From Lactiplantibacillus garii (lineage in GTDB: Bacteria; Bacillota; Bacilli; Lactobacillales; Lactobacillaceae): DNA of 36,564 nucleotides. The position numbers and the translations under genes were made by a program. The notes beneath the pieces are model-generated. The model was not told the DNA's origin. It saw only the letters and a program-made list of their open reading frames with translations, and did not search any database. Positions 24,879 to 36,564 of this stretch are shown here, piece by piece; the stretch's first letter is position 1; every line of letters starts with the position of its first letter. Where the stretch lies: contig NZ_QWZQ01000031.1 of assembly GCF_003885105.1 (NCBI RefSeq), forward strand, positions 1 to 36,564, read 5' to 3'.

Positions 24879-27146
24879 CTAAGATAATTTGCGTTCAACG
24901 ACGTAGACGTCCTGAACGTTCTTTAAACTATCGATAATGCGTTGCAGGTGGTCCAAGTTACGAACCCCCAACGAAACGCTAATGATCACCATTTTGTTAT
25001 GGTCAACTTTACCGTTAACGTTGGTCAAAAACTTCGTATTATTGTTAATGACCTTTAAAACGTCGTTCAGCATCCCGTTGCGGTTGTACCCTTGAATTTC
25101 AAGGTCGGAGTTATAGTTGGTCCGGTCACCCTCGGGATCCTCCCACTGCACGTCAATCAACCGTTCACCCTGAGCTTCGGCACTCGTCACGTTGGGACAT
25201 TCCACCCGGTGCACGGATACCCCGCGGCCCTTAGTGATATAACCCACGATCTCGTCACCCGGAATGGGTGAACAACAATGGCTTAAACGTACTAACAAGT
25301 TATCAACGCCCTGAATAATCACCCCACCGGATGACGAGACTTTACGGCGTTTCTTTTCTTGTTTGTCCTGTTCCTCGGTCTTTTCCTTGGATTTTTTCTT
25401 TGGTGACGATTGTTCGGCAGTTTCGGCAAGAATCGCTTCTTCCCGTTCCCGCTGCCGGTCAGCTTCCCGTTGTTTACGCACGTCACTCGTTAACCGGTTG
25501 GCGATTCCCACGGGCTGCAGGTCGCCAAAACCAAGGGCGGCAAAGAGATCGTCCTGGCTGGCATAGTGCATCTTTTTCGCCACAGCGTCAAGTTTGTCCT
25601 TAGTCATCACGTCTTTAGGACTAAACTCAAATTCTCGTAATTGCTTTTCCAGCAATTCCCGTCCGGTAATGATGTTTTCTTCCCGGTCGGCGTTGCGGAA
25701 AAACTGCTTGATCTTATTACGGGCCCGGCGAGTGTAAACCAGTTTTTGCCAGTCCCGACTCGGTCCGGTCGAACTCGTCGACGTTAAAATATCGACGATG
25801 TCTCCGTTTTTGATTTGGTAATCCAACGGGACGATTTTACCGTTAACCTTGGCTCCGGTAGTGTGGTTCCCAACCTCGGTATGGATCGAATAGGCCATAT
25901 CCAGCGGACCGGCACCCTTTGGTAACTCGGTGACGTCACCCTTCGGTGTAAACGCGTAGACCCGGTCACTAAAGAGGTCCCCCTTAACGCCTTCCATAAA
26001 GTCGGCGGCGTCCTTACTTTCATCTTGAAGCTCAATGATTTCCTTAACCAAGTTCAGTTTGTTGCCCGATTTGGTTGCTTGGACTTCACCGCGTTTACCT
26101 TCCTTGTATGCCCAGTGGGCCGCAACCCCGTATTCAGCGACCCGGTGCATTTCAAATGTCCGAATCTGGATCTCTAAGGGTTTGCCTTCGGGGCCGACCA
26201 CGGTCGTGTGCAGCGACTGGTACATATTGGCCTTAGGCATCGCGATGTAATCCTTAAAGCGGCCCGGCATGGGTTTCCACTGGGTATGAATAGCCCCCAA
26301 AACGGCGTAACAGTCCTTAATGGAGTCCACGACCACCCGAATTGCCAATAAGTCGTATAACTGGCTAAACTGCTTATGTTTATCGCGCATTTTTTTATAA
26401 ATGGAATAAATATGCTTGGGCCGGCCGTAGATTTCCGCGTCGGGTAGTTCCAAGTCCTTCAAGGCTTTTTGAATATCTTGAATGGCAATTTCAATGTATT
26501 TTTCCCGGTCTTCACGCCGTGAGTTCATTAAATGCACGATGCGGTAGTACTGTTGCGGATTCAAATAACGCAGTGAGATATCTTCAAGTTCCCACTTGAT
26601 CGTACTAATCCCCAACCGGTCCGCAATCGGTGCGTAAATTTCCAACGTTTCGTTGGCAATGCGCCGTTGTTTATCGGGACGGAGGTGTTGTAACGTCCGC
26701 ATATTGTGCAGCCGGTCCGCCAGTTTAACAATCATGACCCGAATGTCTTTAGACATCGCTAACAGGAGTTTACGGTGATTTTCGGCTAACTGTTCTTTAT
26801 TGGACTTATACCGAATTTTACCAAGTTTCGTGACCCCGTCAACGATGACGGCGACGTCTTTACCAAATAATTCTTCAACGTCACCGAGTGTTACCCCGGT
26901 ATCTTCCACCACGTCGTGTAAAAAACCCGACGCGACGGTTTCTGGATCCATCTTTAATTCCGCTAAAATGCCGGCAACTTGGATGGGGTGCATTATGTAC
27001 GGCTCCCCGGACTGCCGGTACTGATCACGGTGCACGTAAGTTGCAAAGTCGCAGGCCCGTTTGACGAGTGCGACGTGATCTTTATTCATATATTCTTGAA
27101 CCATATTCAGGACGTCTTGAGCCGTCCAGGTTGGTTGTTTGGGCAT
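24879..27146 (-). CDS. relA: bifunctional (p)ppGpp synthetase/hydrolase (Rsh/RelA)
   Basis: Makes and degrades the alarmone (p)ppGpp in the stringent response. The N-terminal HD hydrolase domain is intact (H53 in YIMHPIQVAG, HD at 77-78 in FLHDVVED), and the synthetase domain has YGRPKHIYSIYKKM and RFKDYIAMPKANMYQSLHTT. A TGS domain follows (VYAFTPKGDVTELPKGAGP), then a Lys/Glu-rich linker, a SHCCSPIPGD zinc-finger-like motif and a C-terminal ACT domain. Both activities should be present. I start at ATG 27146 (MPKQPTW), preceded by GGTGA; the frame to 27167 uses GTG and lacks homology. Length 755. Precedes dtd. Confidence 0.97.
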   Translation of the reverse strand: MPKQPTWTAQDVLNMVQEYMNKDHVALVKRACDFATYVHRDQYRQSGEPYIMHPIQVAGILAELKMDPETVASGFLHDVVEDTGVTLGDVEELFGKDVAVIVDGVTKLGKIRYKSNKEQLAENHRKLLLAMSKDIRVMIVKLADRLHNMRTLQHLRPDKQRRIANETLEIYAPIADRLGISTIKWELEDISLRYLNPQQYYRIVHLMNSRREDREKYIEIAIQDIQKALKDLELPDAEIYGRPKHIYSIYKKMRDKHKQFSQLYDLLAIRVVVDSIKDCYAVLGAIHTQWKPMPGRFKDYIAMPKANMYQSLHTTVVGPEGKPLEIQIRTFEMHRVAEYGVAAHWAYKEGKRGEVQATKSGNKLNLVKEIIELQDESKDAADFMEGVKGDLFSDRVYAFTPKGDVTELPKGAGPLDMAYSIHTEVGNHTTGAKVNGKIVPLDYQIKNGDIVDILTSTSSTGPSRDWQKLVYTRRARNKIKQFFRNADREENIITGRELLEKQLREFEFSPKDVMTKDKLDAVAKKMHYASQDDLFAALGFGDLQPVGIANRLTSDVRKQREADRQREREEAILAETAEQSSPKKKSKEKTEEQDKQEKKRRKVSSSGGVIIQGVDNLLVRLSHCCSPIPGDEIVGYITKGRGVSVHRVECPNVTSAEAQGERLIDVQWEDPEGDRTNYNSDLEIQGYNRNGMLNDVLKVINNNTKFLTNVNGKVDHNKMVIISVSLGVRNLDHLQRIIDSLKNVQDVYVVERKLS

Positions 27147-27183
27147 TGCTATCACCACGACTTCCACAGAATTCTAATTGCAT

Positions 27184-27217
27184 AAAAGGCACGTTAGTTA
27201 TCCACCCAACGTGCCTT
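27184..27217 (-). terminator. intrinsic terminator of the prmA-rsmE-membrane protein unit
   Basis: Minus strand AAGGCACGTT pairs with AACGTGCCTT around a 12-nt loop, followed by TTTT. It lies about 16 nt after the small membrane protein gene. Confidence 0.85.
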
Positions 27218-27233
27218 ACCGACCGATTTTACA

Positions 27234-27563
27234 CTAAACTTCGCGAGGTGCGGTCAACCCGTATGCTAAGTAAGAGATGCCTAGATCGACTAACGCCAAA
27301 TAATAGACATAGGTTGGAAAAAACAGGTACAGGCCAATAAAACAAAATACCGGCAGCACGAATACCAGCCAGCCAGTCCGGTCCGCTTTACGAATCCACC
27401 AACCAATTACCGCCGCCAAGATGAAGTCGACTACGAATAACAGCCATACAATTTGGTGAAACCGGCTGACACTCATAAGCTTCAATCCCCACGGTAACAC
27501 CACCCCAACGACAAGCGCAATGAGCCAATATTGGCCACTGTATTTCAGAAACTTTTCCGTCAA
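27234..27563 (-). CDS. small four-helix membrane protein, function unknown
   Basis: A 109-residue protein not recognised. It has four hydrophobic stretches: about residues 12-30 (YWLIALVVGVVLPWGLKLM), 38-56 (IVWLLFVVDFILAAVIGWW), 64-82 (GWLVFVLPVFCFIGLYLFF) and 85-103 (YVYYLALVDLGISYLAYGL). A short basic loop (RKADR) separates the second and third. The start is TTG, 8 nt after GAGGGAA. It lies 70 bp downstream of rsmE and before a terminator, so it is probably cotranscribed with prmA-rsmE. Confidence 0.8.
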   Translation of the reverse strand: MTEKFLKYSGQYWLIALVVGVVLPWGLKLMSVSRFHQIVWLLFVVDFILAAVIGWWIRKADRTGWLVFVLPVFCFIGLYLFFPTYVYYLALVDLGISYLAYGLTAPREV

Positions 27564-27633
27564 ACTTATTCCCTCACTTACGCTTAATTGCTAAATGACT
27601 ATGATTATTCATTGTACACCACTGCCCGTTAAA

Positions 27634-28386
27634 TTACACTAGTTCGCACCAAAAAGACACGCTACTTAACAAGTAGAGGGGCGCGGTTTCGGCTCGCATG
27701 ATTCGTGGCCCAAGACCGGCTGCCACGATACCCGCGGCGTTTAACTGGCCGACCTCGTCCGGCGTCAGGCCGCCCTCCGGCCCAAAAATCGCTAACAAGC
27801 GCTGACCCGGTTGCATCTGTTTCAAGGTTTGGACCAGTTGGCCGCTTTCACCCCGTTTCGCCGATTCTTCCCAGGCAACGATACCGCGGTCGTACGGCAC
27901 ATCCGCAACGACCCGCTGTAAGTTGGCCGCGTAGCTGACGGTCGGAATCATGGTTCGGTGGGACTGTTCCGCCGCCCCCTGCGCAATCTTGGCCAAGCGT
28001 GCTAACTTGCGTTCACGTTTATTAGCGGCCCACTTGGCAACCGCCCACTGACTATCAAAAAAGACGAAGGCGCTGGCGCCTAGTTCGGTCCCCCGTTGAA
28101 CGATTTGTTCGGGTTTGTCCCCCTTGGACAGCCCGCAGGCAATCGTCACGGGCAGCGGTAATTCAACTTGGGGGTGGCTGACCGCCGTAACGGTGGCCGT
28201 GGCCGTTTGACCGTCCGTAGTCACGAGTTTTGCAACCAACACGGCGTGGGTCAGCGTCACAAATTCCGCTTGGTCGCCGGGTTGGGCCCGCATGACCTTG
28301 ACCCAGTGTTTAACAACGTCCCCACTGACGGTAAAGGTCGTCCCAACCGTCGCAGCCACCGTCGTTTTTAAAAAGTATCGTTGCAT
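27634..28386 (-). CDS. rsmE: 16S rRNA (uracil1498-N3)-methyltransferase RsmE
   Basis: SPOUT-family methyltransferase that methylates U1498 of 16S rRNA in the assembled 30S subunit. The N-terminal PUA-like domain (HWVKVMRAQPGDQ) and the C-terminal knotted domain with FGPEGGLTPDEV and RAETAPLYLLS are typical. Length 250. GGGGGA precedes the ATG, 12 bp after prmA. The prmA-rsmE order is conserved in lactobacilli. Confidence 0.96.
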   Translation of the reverse strand: MQRYFLKTTVAATVGTTFTVSGDVVKHWVKVMRAQPGDQAEFVTLTHAVLVAKLVTTDGQTATATVTAVSHPQVELPLPVTIACGLSKGDKPEQIVQRGTELGASAFVFFDSQWAVAKWAANKRERKLARLAKIAQGAAEQSHRTMIPTVSYAANLQRVVADVPYDRGIVAWEESAKRGESGQLVQTLKQMQPGQRLLAIFGPEGGLTPDEVGQLNAAGIVAAGLGPRIMRAETAPLYLLSSVSFWCELV

Positions 28387-28398
28387 GGCGTTCCCCCG

Positions 28399-29349
28399 CT
28401 AATCTTCATCGGTTGGCAAGTAGGCCACAATACTGTGCCAGTCACCCATCTGAGTATGCTGAGCAATTTGAAAGCCCGCTGCCGCGATCGCGTCACGGAC
28501 CGTTTTGAACTTATCGTTAATAATCCCCGAAGTAATGAAGTACCCGCCCCGTTTTAAGTTTGCTTTTGCTTGTGGAACTAACGGGACGATGATTTCGGCC
28601 AAAATGTTGGCCACGATAATGTCCGCTTGAGCATGAATCCCCTTTAACAGGTCGTTAGCCGCCACCTTAACGTCCTTAGCGACCGGGTTTAAGTCTAAGT
28701 TGGCTTGAGCCGAACGCACGGCGACTTCGTCTAAGTCGTAAGCTTCGACGGCACCCACGCCCATGGCCTTAGCCGCAATGCTTAACACACCGGAGCCGGT
28801 CCCAACGTCAATCAAATGTTCGCCCCCGTTGATGACCGTTTCGAGACCCTGTAAGGAAAGCTTTGTCGTCGGGTGTGTCCCGGTACCAAAGGCCATCCCG
28901 GGGTCTAGCTTAATAACCTCTTCACCGGGCTGGGTAACCTGATAGTTTTCCCAACTAGGGACGATGGTTAAGTAGCGGGTCACCCGCACCGGGTGGTAAT
29001 ACTTTTTCCACGCCGTTGCCCAATTTTCATCAGACAGGGCCGCCATGCTGACTTCGTTGGGGTCCGGGTTCAATCCGTATTCCGCCAATTTAGTAACCCG
29101 TTGCTTAATGGTTGGTAAAATTTCAGGAACGAACACCGTTTCTGGAAAATACGCTGAAACCTTGGCACCGCTGGTCACGTGCGGAATGGTATCCAAGTCG
29201 ATAATTTCACCGTAACGGTCGGGCTTTAAATTCTGGTAATCAAGGGCGTCGTCAATTTTAACACCACTCGCACCGGCTTCCATCAAAATATTTGAAACGG
29301 CTTCAACGGCTTCGTTCGAGGTACTAACGGTAACTTCAGTCCACTTCAT
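28399..29349 (-). CDS. prmA: ribosomal protein L11 methyltransferase PrmA
   Basis: S-adenosylmethionine-dependent enzyme that trimethylates ribosomal protein L11 at several sites. The SAM motif is [15 protein letters not shown], with [11 protein letters not shown] before it and [11 protein letters not shown] after it. The N-terminal ferredoxin-like domain that binds L11 is in place. Length 316. GGAGG precedes the ATG. First gene of prmA-rsmE. Confidence 0.96.
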
Positions 29350-29507: not shown

Positions 29508-29546
29508 AAAAAAACTCGAAACCGTCTAAAAAACCGGTTTCGAGTT
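29508..29546 (-). terminator. intrinsic terminator of the surface-glycosylation operon
   Basis: Minus strand AACTCGAAACCG pairs perfectly with CGGTTTCGAGTT, followed by a T run. It starts 15 nt after the Mur ligase stop. Confidence 0.93.
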
Positions 29547-29561
29547 AACTGATTACTGACG

Positions 29562-31091
29562 TTAACGAACAGCCGCCCGCTTTAACAACCGTGGCGTTAA
29601 GCGGCGAAGATCCGAGCCGTACTTGAAGTGTTGCCCCTTTACGATGACAAAAGCATCCTCTGGTAAAGCTTCAATGTTATCGATCAAAGCATCCATTTGG
29701 GGATAGTACTTAGCCCGCTGACCCCGTTCTGCTAACGCATCAATTAACGGCTTGATCGTTGGATCCCGATAGCCAAGGACGAGATCGATACCGCTATCCA
29801 AAATCGGTTGCACATAACTTAGGTTAAGTTGGACGGCCGCCTCCGCGGTAATGTCATCACCGGTTTCAATCACCAGCACTTTGGGGCCGTGGTAAAACGG
29901 TCCCCGCTCCTTTAAGACCGTCAAGACGTTCAAGACGGAATGACGCGTTGAATTATAGGTATCCTCCACTAACGTAACTGCCCCTTGAGTCGTGCTTAAA
30001 TTATGAAAAACGAGTTCGTTGTGCAGCGGCTTAAACGCTTGAAAGGCCTTAGTCAGATTGGGCAACTGCCAACCTTGTAAACGAAAAGCTAAACACGCCG
30101 CCAGTAAGTCCATTACCGGGCCATCGCCGGGAAGCGCTAGTCGGATCACCGCCGTTTCGTCTAAAATGTTCAGGGTCAATTCCGAATAATCACGGAAATT
30201 TTGGCGACTAACTAAGTAGGCATCCGCATGCGGATCGTGCAAACTAAACGTATGGAGATCCTGGGCGTGTTTCTGCGCAGTCAGTTGGAGTAATTTATAA
30301 ATTTGGGGGTGCATATCATAATTAAGGATGGCATGCCCACCCGGGCGCATCTTTTCAAAAATACGGCCCTTCACCCGTGCCGTTGCTAAATCCTGCTTCA
30401 AACTAGACGTCAAATCATCCTGTCCAGGAATAACGGAACGCTGATGAGCCCCGCCAATCTGTGTAACAATCGCCGTTGTGGCCTCAAAATTATGTGAAAG
30501 CGGCGCGTTTTTAAAACCATCCACCGTTTTGGTAGTCAGGGCCCCAATTGATAACTCCGCGACCATCGCGTCCGGCGTAGTCAACAACGTCGTTAATAAT
30601 TGGGGCAAGACTTGCCGCACGTTGTCATTCCCTAGGTTGGTCATCACCCGGTGGCCACTAGCACGCATTAATTGTGCCAACATCAGGCGGGTCGTGGTTT
30701 TGCCCACCGAACCCGTGACCGTTAGGACCTTACCAAGGTAGCGTTCACGAATATAGGCTGCTACCTCCAAATAAAACCGCCAGGTATCCGGGACAACAAA
30801 TTGGGCAACGCGCCCCTTCAAACCGGGTACCGGTGCTTCGGTGATAACCAGTTCAATTTGTGAATGGGTCAAGACCCACTTGGCGACGTCGAATTCCGCC
30901 GACAACGCGCGCGCTTTAATCTTTGCGCGCCGGGCATTATCCCAGTAGATGAAGCCGCCGTGTTTAACTTCCGGACGCTGCTCAAAATGCATCCCCGTCT
31001 TGTGGCCGAAGTAGTCCACCGCCCAGTCCTGAGTTGGTTCCCCCACTAATTCACCCGTAAGTTGCAAAAAGTCATTCCTATCTAACCGCAT
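29562..31091 (-). CDS. MurF-like Mur ligase family protein
   Basis: Probable ATP-dependent amide (peptide bond) ligase of the Mur family; substrate unknown. The P-loop VTGSVGKTTT spans residues 125-134. NLGND (152-156), VAELSIG (177-183), GGAHQRS (213-219) and EDTYNST (376-382) correspond to the substrate-loop, metal-binding and C-terminal motifs of MurF. A C-terminal VKGQHF resembles the MurF VKGS motif. The N-terminal domain (1-120) is longer than and unlike that of housekeeping MurF. GGAGG precedes the ATG. It is the last gene of a run with two glycosyltransferases and a surface protein, 13 bp behind the nearest. This context argues against a role as the essential MurF and for modification of a glycan or surface polymer, but that is inference. 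Confidence 0.85.
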   Translation of the reverse strand: MRLDRNDFLQLTGELVGEPTQDWAVDYFGHKTGMHFEQRPEVKHGGFIYWDNARRAKIKARALSAEFDVAKWVLTHSQIELVITEAPVPGLKGRVAQFVVPDTWRFYLEVAAYIRERYLGKVLTVTGSVGKTTTRLMLAQLMRASGHRVMTNLGNDNVRQVLPQLLTTLLTTPDAMVAELSIGALTTKTVDGFKNAPLSHNFEATTAIVTQIGGAHQRSVIPGQDDLTSSLKQDLATARVKGRIFEKMRPGGHAILNYDMHPQIYKLLQLTAQKHAQDLHTFSLHDPHADAYLVSRQNFRDYSELTLNILDETAVIRLALPGDGPVMDLLAACLAFRLQGWQLPNLTKAFQAFKPLHNELVFHNLSTTQGAVTLVEDTYNSTRHSVLNVLTVLKERGPFYHGPKVLVIETGDDITAEAAVQLNLSYVQPILDSGIDLVLGYRDPTIKPLIDALAERGQRAKYYPQMDALIDNIEALPEDAFVIVKGQHFKYGSDLRRLTPRLLKRAAVR

Positions 31092-31104
31092 GTGATTTCC
31101 TCCG

Positions 31105-32613
31105 TTAACTTTGCATTTGCCGAATAAAGCCTTGCCACTGAGTAAAAACGGCCTTTTCGGAATAGCGGTGTGAATTTTGATAAGCTGCCCGACTGTACTC
31201 AGCTAATTGATCAGGCCGTTGCAGTAAACTAAGCATGCTGTCAGCCAGTTGTTGCACATTGTCACAAGTGGTGAGAATTCCACTGACACCATCTTGAATA
31301 ATCGCACTCGGCCCGTAGCGGACATCGTTTGCAATCATCGGTAGACCGTGTGCCTGTGCTTCCAACAACATTAATGAAAAACCTTCCGCCCGACTAGGTA
31401 GAACGCCCACTTGTGCCCGGTTATAAACCGCGTTGACATCGTTGGTATACCCTTTAAAACTAACGCAATCCTCTAACTGAAGCCGTTTAACTTGCTCCTG
31501 AACTTTTTTTAACGTATCCCCGTTGGCGTAACCCCAAAATTCCAGCTGGGCATCGGGAATTTGTTGGTGAACTTGTTGAAAGGCCGTGATGGTTTGGTCT
31601 GGTTGCTTTTCCGGTGCTAACCGGGCTACTTGAACAATCAGGTGCTGTTGCCGTTCTTCAAACGGTACCGGATCCGCGCTCAACGTGGCGTCACCCACGT
31701 AACCAACTGGAATGGTGAAAGCCGGTACGCTCGTTCCAAAGCGTGCCTGGACCTCCTTCGTTTGTTCCGGCGTTGCGGAAATCACCGCATCCCAGCGTTC
31801 AAAGTTATTTAAGGCGTTCGCGTAGTTATTATTCAACGGCGCGTGCATAAAGTCTCCATCCGAGCCAACGTGATTATTATGTAGATGCAGGACTTTTTTC
31901 GCCGGGGTCTCCATATTAAATAACCCCCAGGCACATTCCACGGTTCGATCACAAATAAAGACGTTGTCCTCACCATTACGATTAAGCTCGTCATAGAAGA
32001 AACGCGTTAACTCATTCATTCCGTTAAACAGCCAGTTTTGTCCGCGATAGTTAATAACGCGCCACGTGATTCGCTCTTGTTGCGCACGATTCAACATGTG
32101 AATTTTCTCCAAATGAATTTGTCCATCGGCACCAAAATAGGCTTCTTGCGCGATTTTGCCGTTCCAGTCAAAGAGTTGTTCTAAACACTTAACGCCGCGC
32201 GTATCCCACCAAACCATTTTTAAGGTCTTACCGTTAACGTCGAAGTACTGAATATTGCTAACGTGCTCCGTTTCTTCGCGCAGATAAATAATCATCAATA
32301 GCTTGCCCTTTTGAATCACGTTGACTTGCCGTCCCTTACGCGTTTTTATTGCGTCGGCCGGGACCACAACGTCCGCCAAGTCAAACGTTTTCGGCGTAAC
32401 TGCCTGGGTGCCGCAGAAAAAGTCAAAGAGATTAATAAAGTCGGCATCGGCAATTTGGGCGGCTTTCAGCACCTCGTGGAGGTTCATCGCAAACATCCGC
32501 GTAACAATTTTGGCAGCAACCCGGTGACGTTTAAAAATCGCTAAACGACTAATTTCGGCGTGCTCAATACCCGATTTTGAAAATTGCATATTGTCGTTTA
32601 AAAAATAATACAT
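31105..32613 (-). CDS. GT4 glycosyltransferase, TagE/GtfA-like, likely catalytic
   Basis: Retaining GT-B glycosyltransferase with the N-terminal beta-rich add-on domain (DUF1975 type) found in TagE poly(glycerol phosphate) glucosyltransferases and GtfA protein O-glycosyltransferases. The N-terminus SGIEHAEISRLAIFK is the family hallmark. The C-terminal donor domain has R331 and K336 (VARLAPEKQPDQ) and the complete E-x7-E motif, E410-GFSLMLL-E418, plus a GPSAIIQDGVSGIL segment. Length 502. AGGAGGG precedes the ATG, 12 bp after its paralogue. The context next to a Ser/Thr-rich surface protein favours protein glycosylation over teichoic acid. Confidence 0.88.
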   Translation of the reverse strand: MYYFLNDNMQFSKSGIEHAEISRLAIFKRHRVAAKIVTRMFAMNLHEVLKAAQIADADFINLFDFFCGTQAVTPKTFDLADVVVPADAIKTRKGRQVNVIQKGKLLMIIYLREETEHVSNIQYFDVNGKTLKMVWWDTRGVKCLEQLFDWNGKIAQEAYFGADGQIHLEKIHMLNRAQQERITWRVINYRGQNWLFNGMNELTRFFYDELNRNGEDNVFICDRTVECAWGLFNMETPAKKVLHLHNNHVGSDGDFMHAPLNNNYANALNNFERWDAVISATPEQTKEVQARFGTSVPAFTIPVGYVGDATLSADPVPFEERQQHLIVQVARLAPEKQPDQTITAFQQVHQQIPDAQLEFWGYANGDTLKKVQEQVKRLQLEDCVSFKGYTNDVNAVYNRAQVGVLPSRAEGFSLMLLEAQAHGLPMIANDVRYGPSAIIQDGVSGILTTCDNVQQLADSMLSLLQRPDQLAEYSRAAYQNSHRYSEKAVFTQWQGFIRQMQS

Positions 32614-32625
32614 AAAATCACCCTC

Positions 32626-34131
32626 CTATAGTCCCAATGCTCGTTGCCAACGGTGCCAAACCTTGGTCGCCGTCTGATGATCGTGCAGTTGCGCGTACGC
32701 TGCCTCACTAAACGCCGTCAACTTTTGAGGACTAGCCTGTAACTCAAGAATCCGTTTACTCATCGTTAACTGATCACCAGGTTTAATCACGTAACCAGTG
32801 ACCCCGTCGTCGATAAAATCGGCCGGTCCATAATTAAACTGGTAACTAATTACCGGCAACCCGTGGGCCATGGCCTCTTGCATTGCCATTGGACCACCAT
32901 TAGCTAGCGCGGTATTTAACAAGATTTGATAATTGTCATAAACGCCGCTCAAATCTGGTTGGTAGCCACACAACCGAACTTGTTTTTCCAGTTGAAGATC
33001 CGCCACTAACTTTTTCAATTGGTCAACGTACTTAGCATCCCCGTACCCGTAGAGGTCACAACGGACGTTGTTGATATCTTTTTTAACTAACGCGACGACC
33101 CGAATCAATTGCTCCAACTGCCGGTCCGGAGCTAACCGTCCCACGTAGAGCAGTTGGTTTTTGCGTTCAGTGATGGGCCGCAACGGGGCCTGTGAACGCG
33201 CGGTCGTCGTTACGTTGGGCATCACCATGACGTGGCCGTTTGGAAACCGCCGTTGCAAGTGTTGGGCCTGCTTGTTCGTCGCGGTAATGACACCGTCAAA
33301 GTGAGTCAAATTATCGAAAGCTGGTTGTAAGTACCCGTCCAATGGTGAATGCAGCGGCTCGTTAATGTCCTTTGCGTGATAGATTGGAACGTTAACGTAC
33401 TTATGAGAATCATCATTCAACCGTAATAGTGGTTGGACCCCGGTTCCCGGTCGGTCGCTAATAAACGTCGTTGTGGTGGAATCTAACCGACTGAGTTCCG
33501 CTATGAAGAAGTTAAATAAATCATCCCGATTCTGGAAAAAGCGCTCGGACTGATGCTGATAGTTTCGTAAAATTACGCGTGATAATAGGGGGTTCCCTTT
33601 GACGTCAGCCACGTAATACTCTTCCAACACCGTTTGACCAGCCAAGTTGTAATACCGTTGCATGATCAACTTACCGTTTTGTCCAAAATACTGCGTACTA
33701 GATTTAAAGCCCCGCCAATCCCAAAGGTCCGTCGAAAGCGGGTTCCCCTGGTTATCAAGAAATTCCTGATAATAGACTCGCCCAATCGTTCCCGGAATAA
33801 ACCCAACCTTACTAACTAAATTATCACCGTTGGTCACTTCGCTAAAATCGGCACCAACTGTAACCGCGTATTCCACCGGCAACTTAAGGTCATCCGTCCG
33901 TACGAACCGTGATTCGACGCTGGTCGTTTGTTGAAAGAAATCAAACATGTTCAAAATTTGCTCATCAGGCAGCTTAATTGCGGTAACCGTTCCGTGCAGT
34001 AACCGGTCGTAGGTCTTGGTCACAATTTTTGCCGGTTGGTGGAACTGATTAAACAAACGGACCCGGTCAATTGCGGCGTGTTCCACACTGGAATTTTTTG
34101 CTAATAAATATTCATTAATAAAATAAAACAT
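32626..34131 (-). CDS. GT4-type glycosyltransferase paralogue with altered active site, GtfB-like
   Basis: Same architecture and length (501) as its neighbour: N-terminal NSSVEHAAIDRVRLFN, beta-rich middle domain and GT-B donor domain. The active site differs. The E-x7-E motif reads N411-GGPMAMQ-E419, so the first Glu is Asn; and the Lys after VGRLAPD is Arg (R337). GtfB in the accessory Sec GtfA-GtfB pair is a non-catalytic partner that binds the acceptor, and this copy is a candidate for the same role. It lies 15 bp after the 544-residue protein gene. Whether any activity remains cannot be told. Confidence 0.82.
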   Translation of the reverse strand: MFYFINEYLLAKNSSVEHAAIDRVRLFNQFHQPAKIVTKTYDRLLHGTVTAIKLPDEQILNMFDFFQQTTSVESRFVRTDDLKLPVEYAVTVGADFSEVTNGDNLVSKVGFIPGTIGRVYYQEFLDNQGNPLSTDLWDWRGFKSSTQYFGQNGKLIMQRYYNLAGQTVLEEYYVADVKGNPLLSRVILRNYQHQSERFFQNRDDLFNFFIAELSRLDSTTTTFISDRPGTGVQPLLRLNDDSHKYVNVPIYHAKDINEPLHSPLDGYLQPAFDNLTHFDGVITATNKQAQHLQRRFPNGHVMVMPNVTTTARSQAPLRPITERKNQLLYVGRLAPDRQLEQLIRVVALVKKDINNVRCDLYGYGDAKYVDQLKKLVADLQLEKQVRLCGYQPDLSGVYDNYQILLNTALANGGPMAMQEAMAHGLPVISYQFNYGPADFIDDGVTGYVIKPGDQLTMSKRILELQASPQKLTAFSEAAYAQLHDHQTATKVWHRWQRALGL

Positions 34132-34146
34132 CTTATCACCCTCGCT

Positions 34147-35781
34147 TTAATATTGACGGTAAGTGTAATCGTAGTAATTGATCAATCCGGATAAAAAGTG
34201 CTCACAATCGTCAATCCGGGTTCGGAAATTATCGTGACGAGCATAAAAGCCACCGATAAATTTAGCAGGATTGTATAAATACATCGCAATTTCTGGTAGG
34301 AAGCTCCCACTGGTGATTTCATACTCCGCGCGGTACTTCCAAGCTTGCCGTAGCCGCACTAAGTTGTACGGTTCCAATAGGTCTTCATTTCCCGAGTCCC
34401 GGACCAGGTCGGTCATTTTAACCGCGGCGTCCAGTAACTCAAGCAACGTCGGGTAAGTGGTTTCCCGATCTTCCATGAACTTCAAGTGGTCAAACGCATT
34501 CTTTAATCCCAGTGCCATGTAATCCCGGTTATTTGGGAAAACGTGCAATGATTCATTAATTGCGTATGAGATCCAGTGATCATGGTACTTTCCGTAATTG
34601 TGCGCAACCATGTAATCTAAAATTTGTTTGATTTGCGCCAACACTTCCGGATCTTCAGTTAATTCATAAAGACGGGTCAGGCCAAAGACCACTTCGCCTT
34701 CGTAATAAATGATTCGGTAGGCACTTTTTAGACTCAAATCCGGGTTCAAAACGTGTACCAGTTTGCCGTCCTTTTGAATGAAGGCGGGAACCCCTTTGAA
34801 GACCTTTTTCAAGACTGGCATAAACGTCGGGTCCCCGGTCACCGACTGATACTTACTCAGCGTCAACATGAGTAACGCCTGTCCACCGAGCTTTAATTCA
34901 CCGTTATCATCGATAAAAATTTTGCCCTCATGCTCGACGGTAGCTTCCTTTAGCCCCCATTCAATGGCCCGTTTGACCTTTTGATAATCTTCCGTCCGTC
35001 CCGTGAACTGAATTGCTTCCAATAAGGCGTATAGTGATGAAAAATGACGAACGGTATTGTACTTACTAAGTATCAACTGTTTAGCTGGATAATAACCGTA
35101 CACAAATTTCCCGTTAGGCTTCATTTGATTAATTAAAAACGTTTCACCAACGTCAATGGCGTGCGCAATCTCGCTCTTTGGATCACGCATGACGCGCAGC
35201 CCCTTATTACAATCTTCTTTGGTTGAAAGCTGATAAATCTGCGTTCCGTCGGTAAAAATGCCGGCGGTCGTAAACGTCCAGACGTACGCCGTTTGCTCAA
35301 TATCCACGGGCAATTCACCACTGCGCTTAATTAAGTAAGGTTTCACACGGGTGTAATCCACCCACGAGCCAGAACGGTTCCGCCCAATCACGTGTTTTTT
35401 GCTCGGCTGGAACATTGCTTGCCCGTTAATCTCCATTTCTAACAACGCGGTCTTAAGTTCAGGGTCAAAGCTAACACCGTAACGCCAATAATTCATCCGA
35501 ATCGTTGCCGCCAATTGCTTTTCGAACTGGGCACGTGGCAACCGCTGTAAGCACTGCACACTCTCGATCCGTACCCAGCTATCTTGCGGTGTCGTGGCTA
35601 GATGCCGTTCCACTTCGTCCCATGTCCGCTTAAAGCTGTTGTGCCGAATAAACGTCACTTGCGCCCGGTGCCGATGATCACTCACCGAAAGCGCTAAGGT
35701 AACGGTACCCGTACCACGATCAATTAAGTTACCCGTTGAAGTAATCGCAGTTTGCAGTTGTTTAATGAAAGATTTTTGCAT
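34147..35781 (-). CDS. 544-residue protein with helical (alpha/alpha-barrel-like) C-terminal half, function unknown
   Basis: Not assigned to a named family. Residues 1-190 are mixed alpha/beta. From about residue 195 to the end it is built of paired amphipathic helices with short loops (e.g. HFSSLYALLEAIQFTGR, GGQALLMLTLSKYQSVTGD, YYEGEVVFGLTRLYELTEDP), the pattern of (alpha/alpha)6 barrels seen in sugar epimerases, six-hairpin glycosidases and unsaturated glucuronyl hydrolases. Acidic and aromatic residues line these helix ends (NDNGELKLGG-type IDDNGELKLGG, YHDHW). No signal peptide is seen, so it is probably cytoplasmic. The ATG follows AGGATGGG. It is the first gene of the unit with the two glycosyltransferases and the Mur ligase. 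Confidence 0.7.
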   Translation of the reverse strand: MQKSFIKQLQTAITSTGNLIDRGTGTVTLALSVSDHRHRAQVTFIRHNSFKRTWDEVERHLATTPQDSWVRIESVQCLQRLPRAQFEKQLAATIRMNYWRYGVSFDPELKTALLEMEINGQAMFQPSKKHVIGRNRSGSWVDYTRVKPYLIKRSGELPVDIEQTAYVWTFTTAGIFTDGTQIYQLSTKEDCNKGLRVMRDPKSEIAHAIDVGETFLINQMKPNGKFVYGYYPAKQLILSKYNTVRHFSSLYALLEAIQFTGRTEDYQKVKRAIEWGLKEATVEHEGKIFIDDNGELKLGGQALLMLTLSKYQSVTGDPTFMPVLKKVFKGVPAFIQKDGKLVHVLNPDLSLKSAYRIIYYEGEVVFGLTRLYELTEDPEVLAQIKQILDYMVAHNYGKYHDHWISYAINESLHVFPNNRDYMALGLKNAFDHLKFMEDRETTYPTLLELLDAAVKMTDLVRDSGNEDLLEPYNLVRLRQAWKYRAEYEITSGSFLPEIAMYLYNPAKFIGGFYARHDNFRTRIDDCEHFLSGLINYYDYTYRQY

Positions 35782-35828
35782 TTTAGTCCCATCCTAACTT
35801 AATTCTATTTTTTACAACTATGTATGCC

Positions 35829-35847
35829 CACGGGCGAAGTGCCCGTG
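35829..35847. repeat. GC-rich hairpin in the leader of the 544-residue protein gene
   Basis: CACGGGC pairs with GCCCGTG around a 5-nt loop. Similar GCCCACGGGC...GCCCGTG hairpins occur at the right ends of IS200/IS605 elements, but no transposase remnant was recognised here. No T-tract follows on either strand. Confidence 0.5.
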
Positions 35848-35851
35848 AGAC

Positions 35852-35925
35852 TGACGAGTTATTAAAGGTCTTAAAACACGATCTTCGTTCTGAAATGACT
35901 AAGCGATTATTACGACTACTCGTCA
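35852..35925. repeat. 8-bp inverted repeat enclosing 58 bp
   Basis: TGACGAGT (35852-35859) and ACTCGTCA (35918-35925) are perfect inverted copies. Together with the adjacent hairpin they make the 193-bp gap unusually structured. On the plus strand the same segment is open from ATG 35820 to TAA 35933 (37 codons, no ribosome binding site). Confidence 0.45.
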
Positions 35926-35936
35926 AAGCGTAATTT

Positions 35937-35964
35937 CATTTAAATTAGTCTTTCTTCTTGTCAA
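35937..35964 (-). promoter_or_regulatory. possible promoter of the glycosylation genes
   Basis: Minus strand TTGACA (35964-35959), a 16-bp spacer and TAAATG (35942-35937), just after the stop codon of the surface protein. The -35 is perfect but the -10 is poor. It would give a leader of about 150 nt. Confidence 0.4.
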
Positions 35965-35974
35965 ACTGTTCCTA

Positions 35975-36564
35975 CTACTCATCACGCCGTTTTTTACCGA
36001 GCCCCAACATTGCTAACAACCCACTCGCCGCAAGTAGCAAACTACCAGCAAGCGTTGCGTTCGTGTTATCAGCATCATTAGTTTGTGGCAAGGCACTATC
36101 GGTGCCAGTTTCGGATGAAGATTCAGTTGCATTTGCGCTGGCCGCAACACCAGTTTGGGCTTGATCACCAGCAGACGTGGTTACATTCGCAAGGTTGCTT
36201 GGTTGACTAGTCCCACTAGTATTACCTAGATTGCTAGTATTCCCGGCAGCGTGGTTGTTATCAGAATCTGAACCACCAGTTAGTTCATCGGCATCTGAAC
36301 CAGATTCTAATCCAGCATTAGCACTGTTACCCAGTCCATTGTCGACATCAGTACCACTGTTTGAACCGTTTTCTGAGTCAACTTCATCACCAGAACCATT
36401 ATCAGTAACGGTGCCACTACCTAATCCATTATCCGTATCAGTACCACTGCCCGAACCAGTATCCGTGTCAGTGCCACTGCCCGAACCAGTATCCGTACCA
36501 GTACCACTACCTGAACCAGTATCCGTACCAGTACCGCTGCCTGAACCGGTATCCGTGTCAGTAC
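35975..36564 (-). CDS. LPQTN-anchored surface protein with Gly/Ser/Thr/Asp repeats, C-terminal part
   Basis: Only the last 195 residues are in the window; the start lies beyond 36564. The C-terminus is a sortase signal: LPQTN (36091-36077), a hydrophobic stretch (ATLAGSLLLAASGLLAMLGL) and the basic tail GKKRRDE. Before it is a low-complexity region rich in Ser, Thr, Gly, Asn and Asp, beginning at the edge with perfect decapeptide repeats (TDTGSGSGT plus G or D) that degenerate toward the anchor. Such regions act as wall-spanning stalks and are common O-glycosylation substrates. The protein is not a strict Ser-x-Ser adhesin. Size and head domain are unknown. Confidence 0.9.
   Translation of the reverse strand, partial: TDTDTGSGSGTGTDTGSGSGTGTDTGSGSGTDTDTGSGSGTDTDNGLGSGTVTDNGSGDEVDSENGSNSGTDVDNGLGNSANAGLESGSDADELTGGSDSDNNHAAGNTSNLGNTSGTSQPSNLANVTTSAGDQAQTGVAASANATESSSETGTDSALPQTNDADNTNATLAGSLLLAASGLLAMLGLGKKRRDE
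36401..36564 (-). repeat. 30-bp tandem repeats in the stalk region
   Basis: Units of exactly 30 bp start at 36431, 36461, 36491, 36521 and 36551 (the last cut by the window edge), with a degenerate copy before 36431. Each encodes ten residues. Most differences between units lie at third codon positions or swap Gly and Asp, so the array is maintained as coding sequence and probably continues outside the window. Confidence 0.92.

Follow-up and report, generated by a model that had tools for sequence, protein, structure and literature searches.

Alternating-aspartate stalks of surface proteins are usually taken as spacers or, where serine is present, as carriers of O-glycans. In Staphylococcus aureus, the Ser-Asp repeats of the Clf/Sdr proteins are glycosylated by SdgB and then by SdgA, with SdgB modifying the serine of the DSD motif (PMC8561734, in excerpt), and in Staphylococcus warneri gtf genes follow the sdr genes, in a source whose excerpted text contains no occurrence of the word "ligase" (PMC8360574). 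Protein O-glycosylation by GtfA/GtfB in Lactiplantibacillus plantarum requires both GT-B proteins (Lee et al. 2014, as cited in an excerpt of PMC4919987), and Lmo1799 has been described as having "226 Ala-Asp tandem repeats" (PMC8687577, in excerpt). Here we analyze a five-gene unit in a Lactiplantibacillus contig (G000:C83:1-36564) that belongs to a 158-contig draft genome; all 36564 bases of this contig are called the window below. The unit encodes a giant repeat protein, a protein of 544 residues (P544), two glycosyltransferases (GT1 and GT2), and a Mur-type ligase (MurL).

P544 is the core of this locus, and the GT pair is not its centre. Across Bacilli, a gene for an alternating-Asp repeat protein is the near-constant neighbor of P544; one or two SdgA/SdgB-like GTs accompany P544 when the residue between the aspartates is Ser or Thr; and a Mur-type (or, in four loci, ATP-grasp) ligase is an optional companion, which is fused to P544 in one genus. 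It is quite plausible, though far from certain, that the locus produces a giant surface protein with an alternating-Asp stalk and modifies it, the GTs acting on Ser/Thr and P544 and the ligase on Asp. The GT layer of such a system is known, and the proposed P544/ligase layer rests on comparative evidence. The features of the unit are as follows.

35975..36562, minus strand: 3' end of the gene for an LPQTN-anchored giant repeat protein (GSGTDTDT-type repeats), identified by its open reading frame (ORF), the LPQTN motif, and Gram_pos_anchor at 1.9e-6; open at the contig end
34147..35781, minus strand: P544, 544 residues, with an N-terminal domain (1-198, perhaps weakly AMMECR1-like) and an (alpha/alpha)6 barrel (199-544)
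32626..34131, minus strand: GT1, an SdgA/GtfB-type GT-B protein (SdgA model 234 bits, cut-off 800; motif column)
31105..32613, minus strand: GT2, a predicted SdgB/GtfA-type O-glycosyltransferase (SdgB model 265 bits, cut-off 800; intact E-x7-E)
29562..31091, minus strand: MurL, a MurF-like ATP-dependent carboxylate-amine ligase of 509 residues (Mur_ligase_M, MurF structure profile match, invariant columns)
29508..29546, minus strand: intrinsic terminator of the unit (sequence and fold z -5.1)

The neighborhoods of P544 were surveyed with 60 ORFs of at least 300 residues, near relatives being counted separately. These came from the window, the 13 loci of one search, 8 of the 13 genomes of a second search (the remaining 5 were the window or contigs already among the 13 loci), and 18 of 54 and 19 of 30 genomes of two further searches; the 18- and 19-genome sets were picked for spread before their neighbors were seen, and the short flanks of the 8 genomes had been seen beforehand. 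The count excludes P544 pieces shorter than 300 residues (those of L044, L157, and L158 and the shorter part in L043). A repeat ORF was accepted when it lay on the same strand within 600 bp and counted 20 or more residues within strict D-x-D-x runs of at least 12. Such an ORF stands beside P544 in 53 of the 60 cases, 52 times upstream and once downstream, and among the 1208 ORFs with 100 residues or more in the loci, just 6 besides these neighbors carry alternating-Asp repeats, all of them in L026, L041, L146, and L154. The association runs from P544 to the repeat gene. Between the aspartates stand Ser (6759 times), Ala (4635), Thr (1870), and Gly (312), with other residues rare. By a simple pattern, an LPxTG-type motif ends 28 of the 53 repeat proteins; sortase anchoring is not universal, because several lactobacillar proteins (e.g., L017, L019, L023, L024, L027) lack the motif and finish with a hydrophobic segment and a basic tail. 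The labels Listeria-, Enterococcus-, and Staphylococcus-like used below are inferred, the only computed match being that of the L106 repeat protein to the Lmo1799 family (NCBIfam NF046114, 443.5 bits). This family resembles the window in that the gene for an alternating-Asp LPxTG protein is followed directly by that of a P544 relative (L106-L108), which by gene order is presumably Lmo1798, but in these loci the intervening residue is Ala and neither a GT-pair homologue nor a ligase gene was seen alongside. In L044 (8337-9939), P544 lies in three broken ORFs, no alternating-Asp ORF was seen there, and the GT pair is intact. In L043 (12132-13773), P544 is split into two ORFs though the repeat gene is present. 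To the eye, non-lactobacillar alternating-Asp proteins (L090, L091, L094, L099, L100, L102-L108) have in common a basic motif at the N-terminus, D[YF][KR]xx[ML] or a close variant with a K/R-rich segment after it, which differs from YSIRK and KxYKxGKxW.

The GTs follow the residue between the aspartates. Presence was scored as a BLAST alignment of more than 250 residues with the GT pair of the window, within 6 kb, and other GTs lie near some loci. By this measure, GT1/GT2 homologues were found at 21 of the 24 loci with Ser/Thr in at least half of the variable positions and at none of the 29 others (Fisher 6e-12, kinship uncorrected). The Staphylococcus-like genus g108 gave 3/4 Ser/Thr loci against 0/6 others (p 0.033 by hand; the repeat-less L141 excluded). 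As kin genomes are not independent samples, these p values make the association look stronger than it is. Five of the 21 loci (L038-L040, L142, L144) have a single GT rather than a pair, two of the three Ser/Thr exceptions (L098, L143) have a Glycos_transf_2 gene beside P544, and L146 has a 70-bit GT match. The distribution of GT2 at E<=1e-40 (113 of 201 genomes) was not used, as it consists largely of other GtfA/B-type pairs. Both window GTs contain Glycos_transf_1 (Pfam E 1e-33 and 2e-30), and SdgA and SdgB are their best models, yet below the cut-off of 800 (GT2 to SdgB 264.9 bits, GT1 to SdgA 234.2 bits). E-x7-E is the motif of retaining GT-B (GT4) enzymes; it is intact in GT2 in 17/17 orthologs and fails in GT1 (0/17), where the first Glu is Asn in the window and Asp or Asn in all 17 orthologs. 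GT2 is thus likely the transferase and GT1 its possibly non-catalytic partner. The likeness to the S. aureus system lies in GTs of the same type and in a giant surface protein with Asp-alternating repeats (TD-type in the window); the differences are the low model scores, the missing first Glu of GT1, and the presence of P544 and a Mur ligase, which are not part of that system as described in the excerpt of PMC8561734. With L. plantarum GtfA/GtfB, the locus shares two GT-B proteins, but the likelier counterpart is probably a second GT pair in the same genome, on contig C125 (45% and 35% identical to GT2).

MurL matches Mur_ligase_M at 5.4e-16 (59.6 bits, cut-off 24) and thereby belongs to the Mur ligase superfamily. 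T126, G127, G130, and K131 of the P-loop, N155, E179, K241, D377, and T378 are invariant in 15 members, and the P-loop, the Mg-associated Glu, the Lys, and the D-T region have catalytic roles in Mur enzymes. The best matches of the MurL profile A3 are structures of MurF, the UDP-MurNAc-tripeptide-D-Ala-D-Ala ligase (E 3e-47), with the E and K of the two falling in the same alignment columns. In MurF, an N-terminal domain binds the UDP-MurNAc-peptide. The resemblance covers the middle and C-terminal ligase domains; the first ~85 residues are unaligned to the best MurF structures, the best two matches starting at profile positions 85 and 90 and other MurF entries at 64-96, and the NCBIfam MurF equivalog model gives MurL 100.3 bits against a cut-off of 288.6 (205.7 for its relative in L109 and 202.8 for that in L159). 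In cyanophycin synthetase, a Mur-type domain couples Arg to the Asp side chains of a polymer; this is a functional analogy only, as MurL scores 17.1 bits against a cut-off of 850 with that model.

The first-pass annotation, made from the sequence alone, proposed that the ligase and the 544-residue gene be checked for co-occurrence with the GT pair and a repeat protein, and that scattered genes without a shared distribution would count against a common locus. They are not scattered: a MurL ortholog (E<=1e-20) occurs in 3 of 201 Lactobacillaceae genomes, with P544 on the same contig ~3 kb away in all three. Among 266 Lactobacillales genomes, MurL (E<=1e-70) was found in 12, of which 11 are P544-positive (p 1e-7 even if all 54 P544 genomes lay in the sample of 266) and 7 have MurL adjacent or fused to P544. 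P544 and MurL form a single uninterrupted ORF of 1084-1162 residues in G237, G475, and G472, and the MurL half is 29-30% identical to the window MurL (E 4e-60 to 5e-49); these fusions perhaps reflect one event, because the three genomes belong to one genus. In five genomes of another genus (g65), the gene next to P544 is MurL, at a distance of 233-292 bp. A Mur ligase lies within 4 kb or is fused in 7/24 Ser/Thr loci and 11/29 others (p 0.57). The ATP-dependent carboxylate-amine ligases comprise a second large class, the ATP-grasp enzymes, and a YheC/D-type ATP-grasp gene lies downstream of P544 as the next gene in L042 and as the next but one in L150, L151, and L153.

Several further features of these ligases were seen. 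The Staphylococcus-like MurL proteins (L141, L142, L143, L145, L159) have 683-715 residues against 509 in the window, and in L159 the MurL N-terminus is matched a second time at 606-682. In f24 genomes, a protein of 200-223 residues lies between P544 and the ATP-grasp gene in overlapping ORFs (L150:8305-8907, L151:11008-11679, L153:8513-9169). Large fusions of a MurF-like ligase with S11 (D-Ala-D-Ala carboxypeptidase-like) and PGA_cap domains, scored for L022 only, occur at L022:14802-17996, L056:8562-14112, L057:8463-11672, L058:10005-13205, and L191:6649-9885. L056, from a genome without a P544 match, has two copies after a giant LPxTG protein, the second being shorter (720 residues).

P544 itself has no Pfam or NCBIfam family above cut-off, and its relatives are found across Bacilli. 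As the first-pass annotation had it, the C-terminal half is helical, and it proved to be an (alpha/alpha)6 barrel folded like N-acylglucosamine 2-epimerases. It nevertheless differs from the N-acylglucosamine/cellobiose 2-epimerase family: the best epimerase rows are 12-15% identical, PF07221 is not among the Pfam matches up to E 0.1, and the P544 profile aligned out of register with 12 proteins from PF07221 loci (hhalign probability 72.7), so that we do not claim an epimerase function from the fold. The fold of the N-terminal domain is perhaps weakly AMMECR1-like; a match to a monooxygenase-like entry (E 0.004, over profile positions 92-177) was dropped, as the fold search of this domain puts other entries first. 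The invariant residues include nine Arg/Lys, four His, and an acid/His set of D401, H402, D524, D525, and H528. GH88 and C5-epimerase matches, both below cut-off, were obtained for a Listeria-like member.

The module of P544, repeat gene, and companions is well supported, and for its chemistry we suggest the following course. Before the protein leaves the cytoplasm, GT2 would, with the help of GT1, add sugars to the Ser/Thr of the stalk, which is (D-T)n in the window and (D-S)n or (D-A)n in relatives. P544 may bind the polyanionic repeat through its invariant Arg, Lys, and His residues and either carry out a first modification or present the chain, and the ligase would activate a carboxylate with ATP and couple an amine to it. 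The acceptor would most simply be the Asp side chain, because aspartate is the carboxylate common to the loci and because the Mur/ATP-grasp chemistry of carboxylate, amine, and ATP fits it; the reaction would most simply be an amidation, and the outcome a stalk of altered charge and protease resistance. A wider form of this proposal, which we offer tentatively and regard as somewhat doubtful, is that throughout Bacilli P544 (probably Lmo1798-like) and an interchangeable Mur-type or ATP-grasp ligase turn stalk Asp into amide-linked side chains, forming a protein-templated, cyanophycin-like surface polymer to which O-glycans are an add-on where Ser/Thr are present.

Several observations weigh against Asp chemistry carried out by P544 and a ligase. 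The barrel fold fixes no reaction, and the P544 profile met the epimerase family out of register only. Seven of the 60 P544 ORFs have no adjacent repeat ORF: the window, where the contig ends; L028; L095, L141, and L152, which are second copies in genomes that also have a normal copy; and L155 and L156, distant members beside LPxTG proteins lacking alternating-Asp runs. Conversely, giant Ser-Asp-rich proteins occur without an adjacent P544 in L050 and L051. Four of the 12 MurL genomes (G071, G214, G346, G374) have MurL at a site away from P544, and G351, to judge by its number one of the genomes searched for P544, has three MurL matches and no P544 match. The Mur-S11-PGA_cap fusions of G193, which has no P544 match, follow another giant LPxTG protein, and the fusion in L191 follows a GT at a distance of 5 bp, an arrangement in keeping with a glycan acceptor. 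Moreover, 31 of the 53 loci, including the Listeria-like (DA)n loci L106-L108, have neither a Mur-type nor a YheC/D ATP-grasp ligase nearby, so P544 must act there without an adjacent ligase.

Among the alternatives, the one that survives best, although we consider it unlikely, is that the ligase acts on sugar. P544, as an epimerase-like enzyme, and MurL would then build or finish an acid-bearing glycan (a uronic or lactyl sugar, or one resembling UDP-MurNAc-peptide), adding an amino acid or peptide before or after transfer by GT2/GT1. The P544 barrel resembles sugar epimerases and glycosidases, as do the sub-threshold matches of the Listeria-like member; MurL is closest to MurF; and, besides the L191 fusion next to a GT, nucleotidyltransferase and kinase genes are added in Levilactobacillus loci (domains scored in L027). 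However, P544 and a Mur ligase also occur at loci where (DA)n repeats are nearly devoid of Ser/Thr and no homologue of GT1/GT2 lies within 6 kb, and ATP-grasp can replace the ligase near P544. Because P544 and the ligase are independent of Ser/Thr, a glycan-centred view is set back. The first-pass annotation had suggested that the glycan or its carrier receives an amino acid or peptide; the carrier, through the Asp side chains of the protein, is the better candidate, and the (DA)n loci make addition to the O-glycan not the simplest reading.

Other repeat proteins have escorts of the GtfB/Asp type, and P544 might similarly hold the polyanionic repeat in an unfolded state in the cytoplasm and hand it over to Sec, the ligase having a side role (e.g., wall attachment) and no Asp chemistry taking place. 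The constancy of the repeat gene beside P544 without any universal second enzyme, the invariant Arg/Lys and His residues, and the specialized signal peptides are all consistent with an escort. We nevertheless hold this to be rather unlikely, as the invariant D401, H402, D524, D525, and H528 sit in a barrel fold that is catalytic elsewhere and P544 is fused to an ATP-dependent ligase whose catalytic positions are preserved. A role of the genes in teichoic-acid modification or in the synthesis of another polymer, with only a chance link to the repeat gene, is very improbable: TagE-type GTs are annotated as teichoic-acid enzymes and PGA_cap (capsule-type) domains occur in some related loci, but P544 adjoins one narrow protein class across many genera and is decayed where no repeat gene was seen (L044), and the neighborhoods seen gave no support to the separate surface polymer that the first-pass annotation had also considered.

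Modification of the stalk aspartates by P544 and a ligase, if true, would represent a new kind of system. Even almost pure Asp-Ala repeats, in which there is nothing to O-glycosylate, have the P544 family beside them, and this family is linked to ATP-dependent ligases; if P544 modifies these stalks, their real surface chemistry may differ from the current picture. The candidate decoration spans food bacteria and Listeria-, Enterococcus-, and Staphylococcus-like relatives. A limited search of the open-licence literature found no link of P544-like proteins or a Mur ligase to alternating-Asp proteins, and lmo1798 appeared, among the matches listed, only in a list of single-nucleotide polymorphisms from a genome-wide association study. 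The locus thus gives a first functional handle on a family that is unnamed in Pfam and NCBIfam, and the question is testable in lactobacilli.

The window agrees with the first-pass annotation in its architecture, and the identification of a surface-protein modification locus that includes a Mur ligase and the 544-residue gene is supported. The five ORFs are all on the minus strand at the positions given earlier, and Pfam confirms the LPQTN repeat protein (Gram_pos_anchor, E 2e-6), the GT pair (Glycos_transf_1 twice), and the MurF-like ligase (Mur_ligase_M). The gaps from P544 through GT1 and GT2 to MurL are 15, 12, and 13 bp, and 193 bp separate the LPQTN gene from P544; from this arrangement, the repeat gene is likely co-transcribed with P544-GT1-GT2-MurL. 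The single strong terminator behind MurL has a 12-bp stem, a 10-base loop, and a T run, and it folds at -26.7 kcal/mol over a 71-base stretch, with none of 200 shuffles as stable; a consensus terminator scan missed this hairpin (about 29546-29508) because its loop limit is 8. A promoter scan of the window was at chance (11 found, 10.9 expected).

The beginning of the repeat protein is probably encoded on contig C132 (5.6 kb) of the same genome. This contig (L033) encodes 1660 residues with a KxYKxGKxW signal (TIGR03715, 28.6 bits, cut-off 18), Ala/Ser-rich stretches, and TD repeats at the very contig end, and a homologue in L018 has these parts in the same order with LPQTN near its end; C132 thus probably holds the missing first 1660 residues of the LPQTN protein, across an inferred C132-C83 junction. 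The signal recalls the accessory Sec (SecA2/SecY2) system of serine-rich repeat proteins, but the absence of SecA2 and SecY2 genes that had been noted for the window extends to the draft genome of 158 contigs. Its sole SecA match is the canonical SecA (1081-1130 bits, over cut-off; 902 with the SecA2 model, cut-off 930), and its sole SecY match has 184.9 bits against the SecY2 cut-off of 249.6. Both matches are explained by SecA1/SecY1, and an accessory Sec system was set back.

Other loci carry additional genes. In Levilactobacillus-like L050-L052, a second giant protein with a KxYKxGKxW-like start occurs with a GT pair, a third GT, and twin proteins of 289-306 residues, with no adjoining P544. 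The Levilactobacillus loci (L023-L027 and L029 near GT2; L020, L021) hold extra genes in a set that varies by locus: a nucleotidyltransferase+APH protein (~547 residues) and a nucleotidyltransferase (~240 residues), with domains scored in L027; a protein of 597-617 residues without a Pfam match (scored in L023 and L024); a PGA_cap-like protein (seen in L026, scored in L021); and HEWTHWN/HEWAHWN proteins in L020, L021, and L024. Finally, prmA-rsmE-rel (24879-29349) adjoin the locus in the window, the Lactiplantibacillus modestisalitolerans P544 locus lies near rel (L022), and prmA-rsmE are on the same contig in L058; these common neighbors suggest a conserved site.

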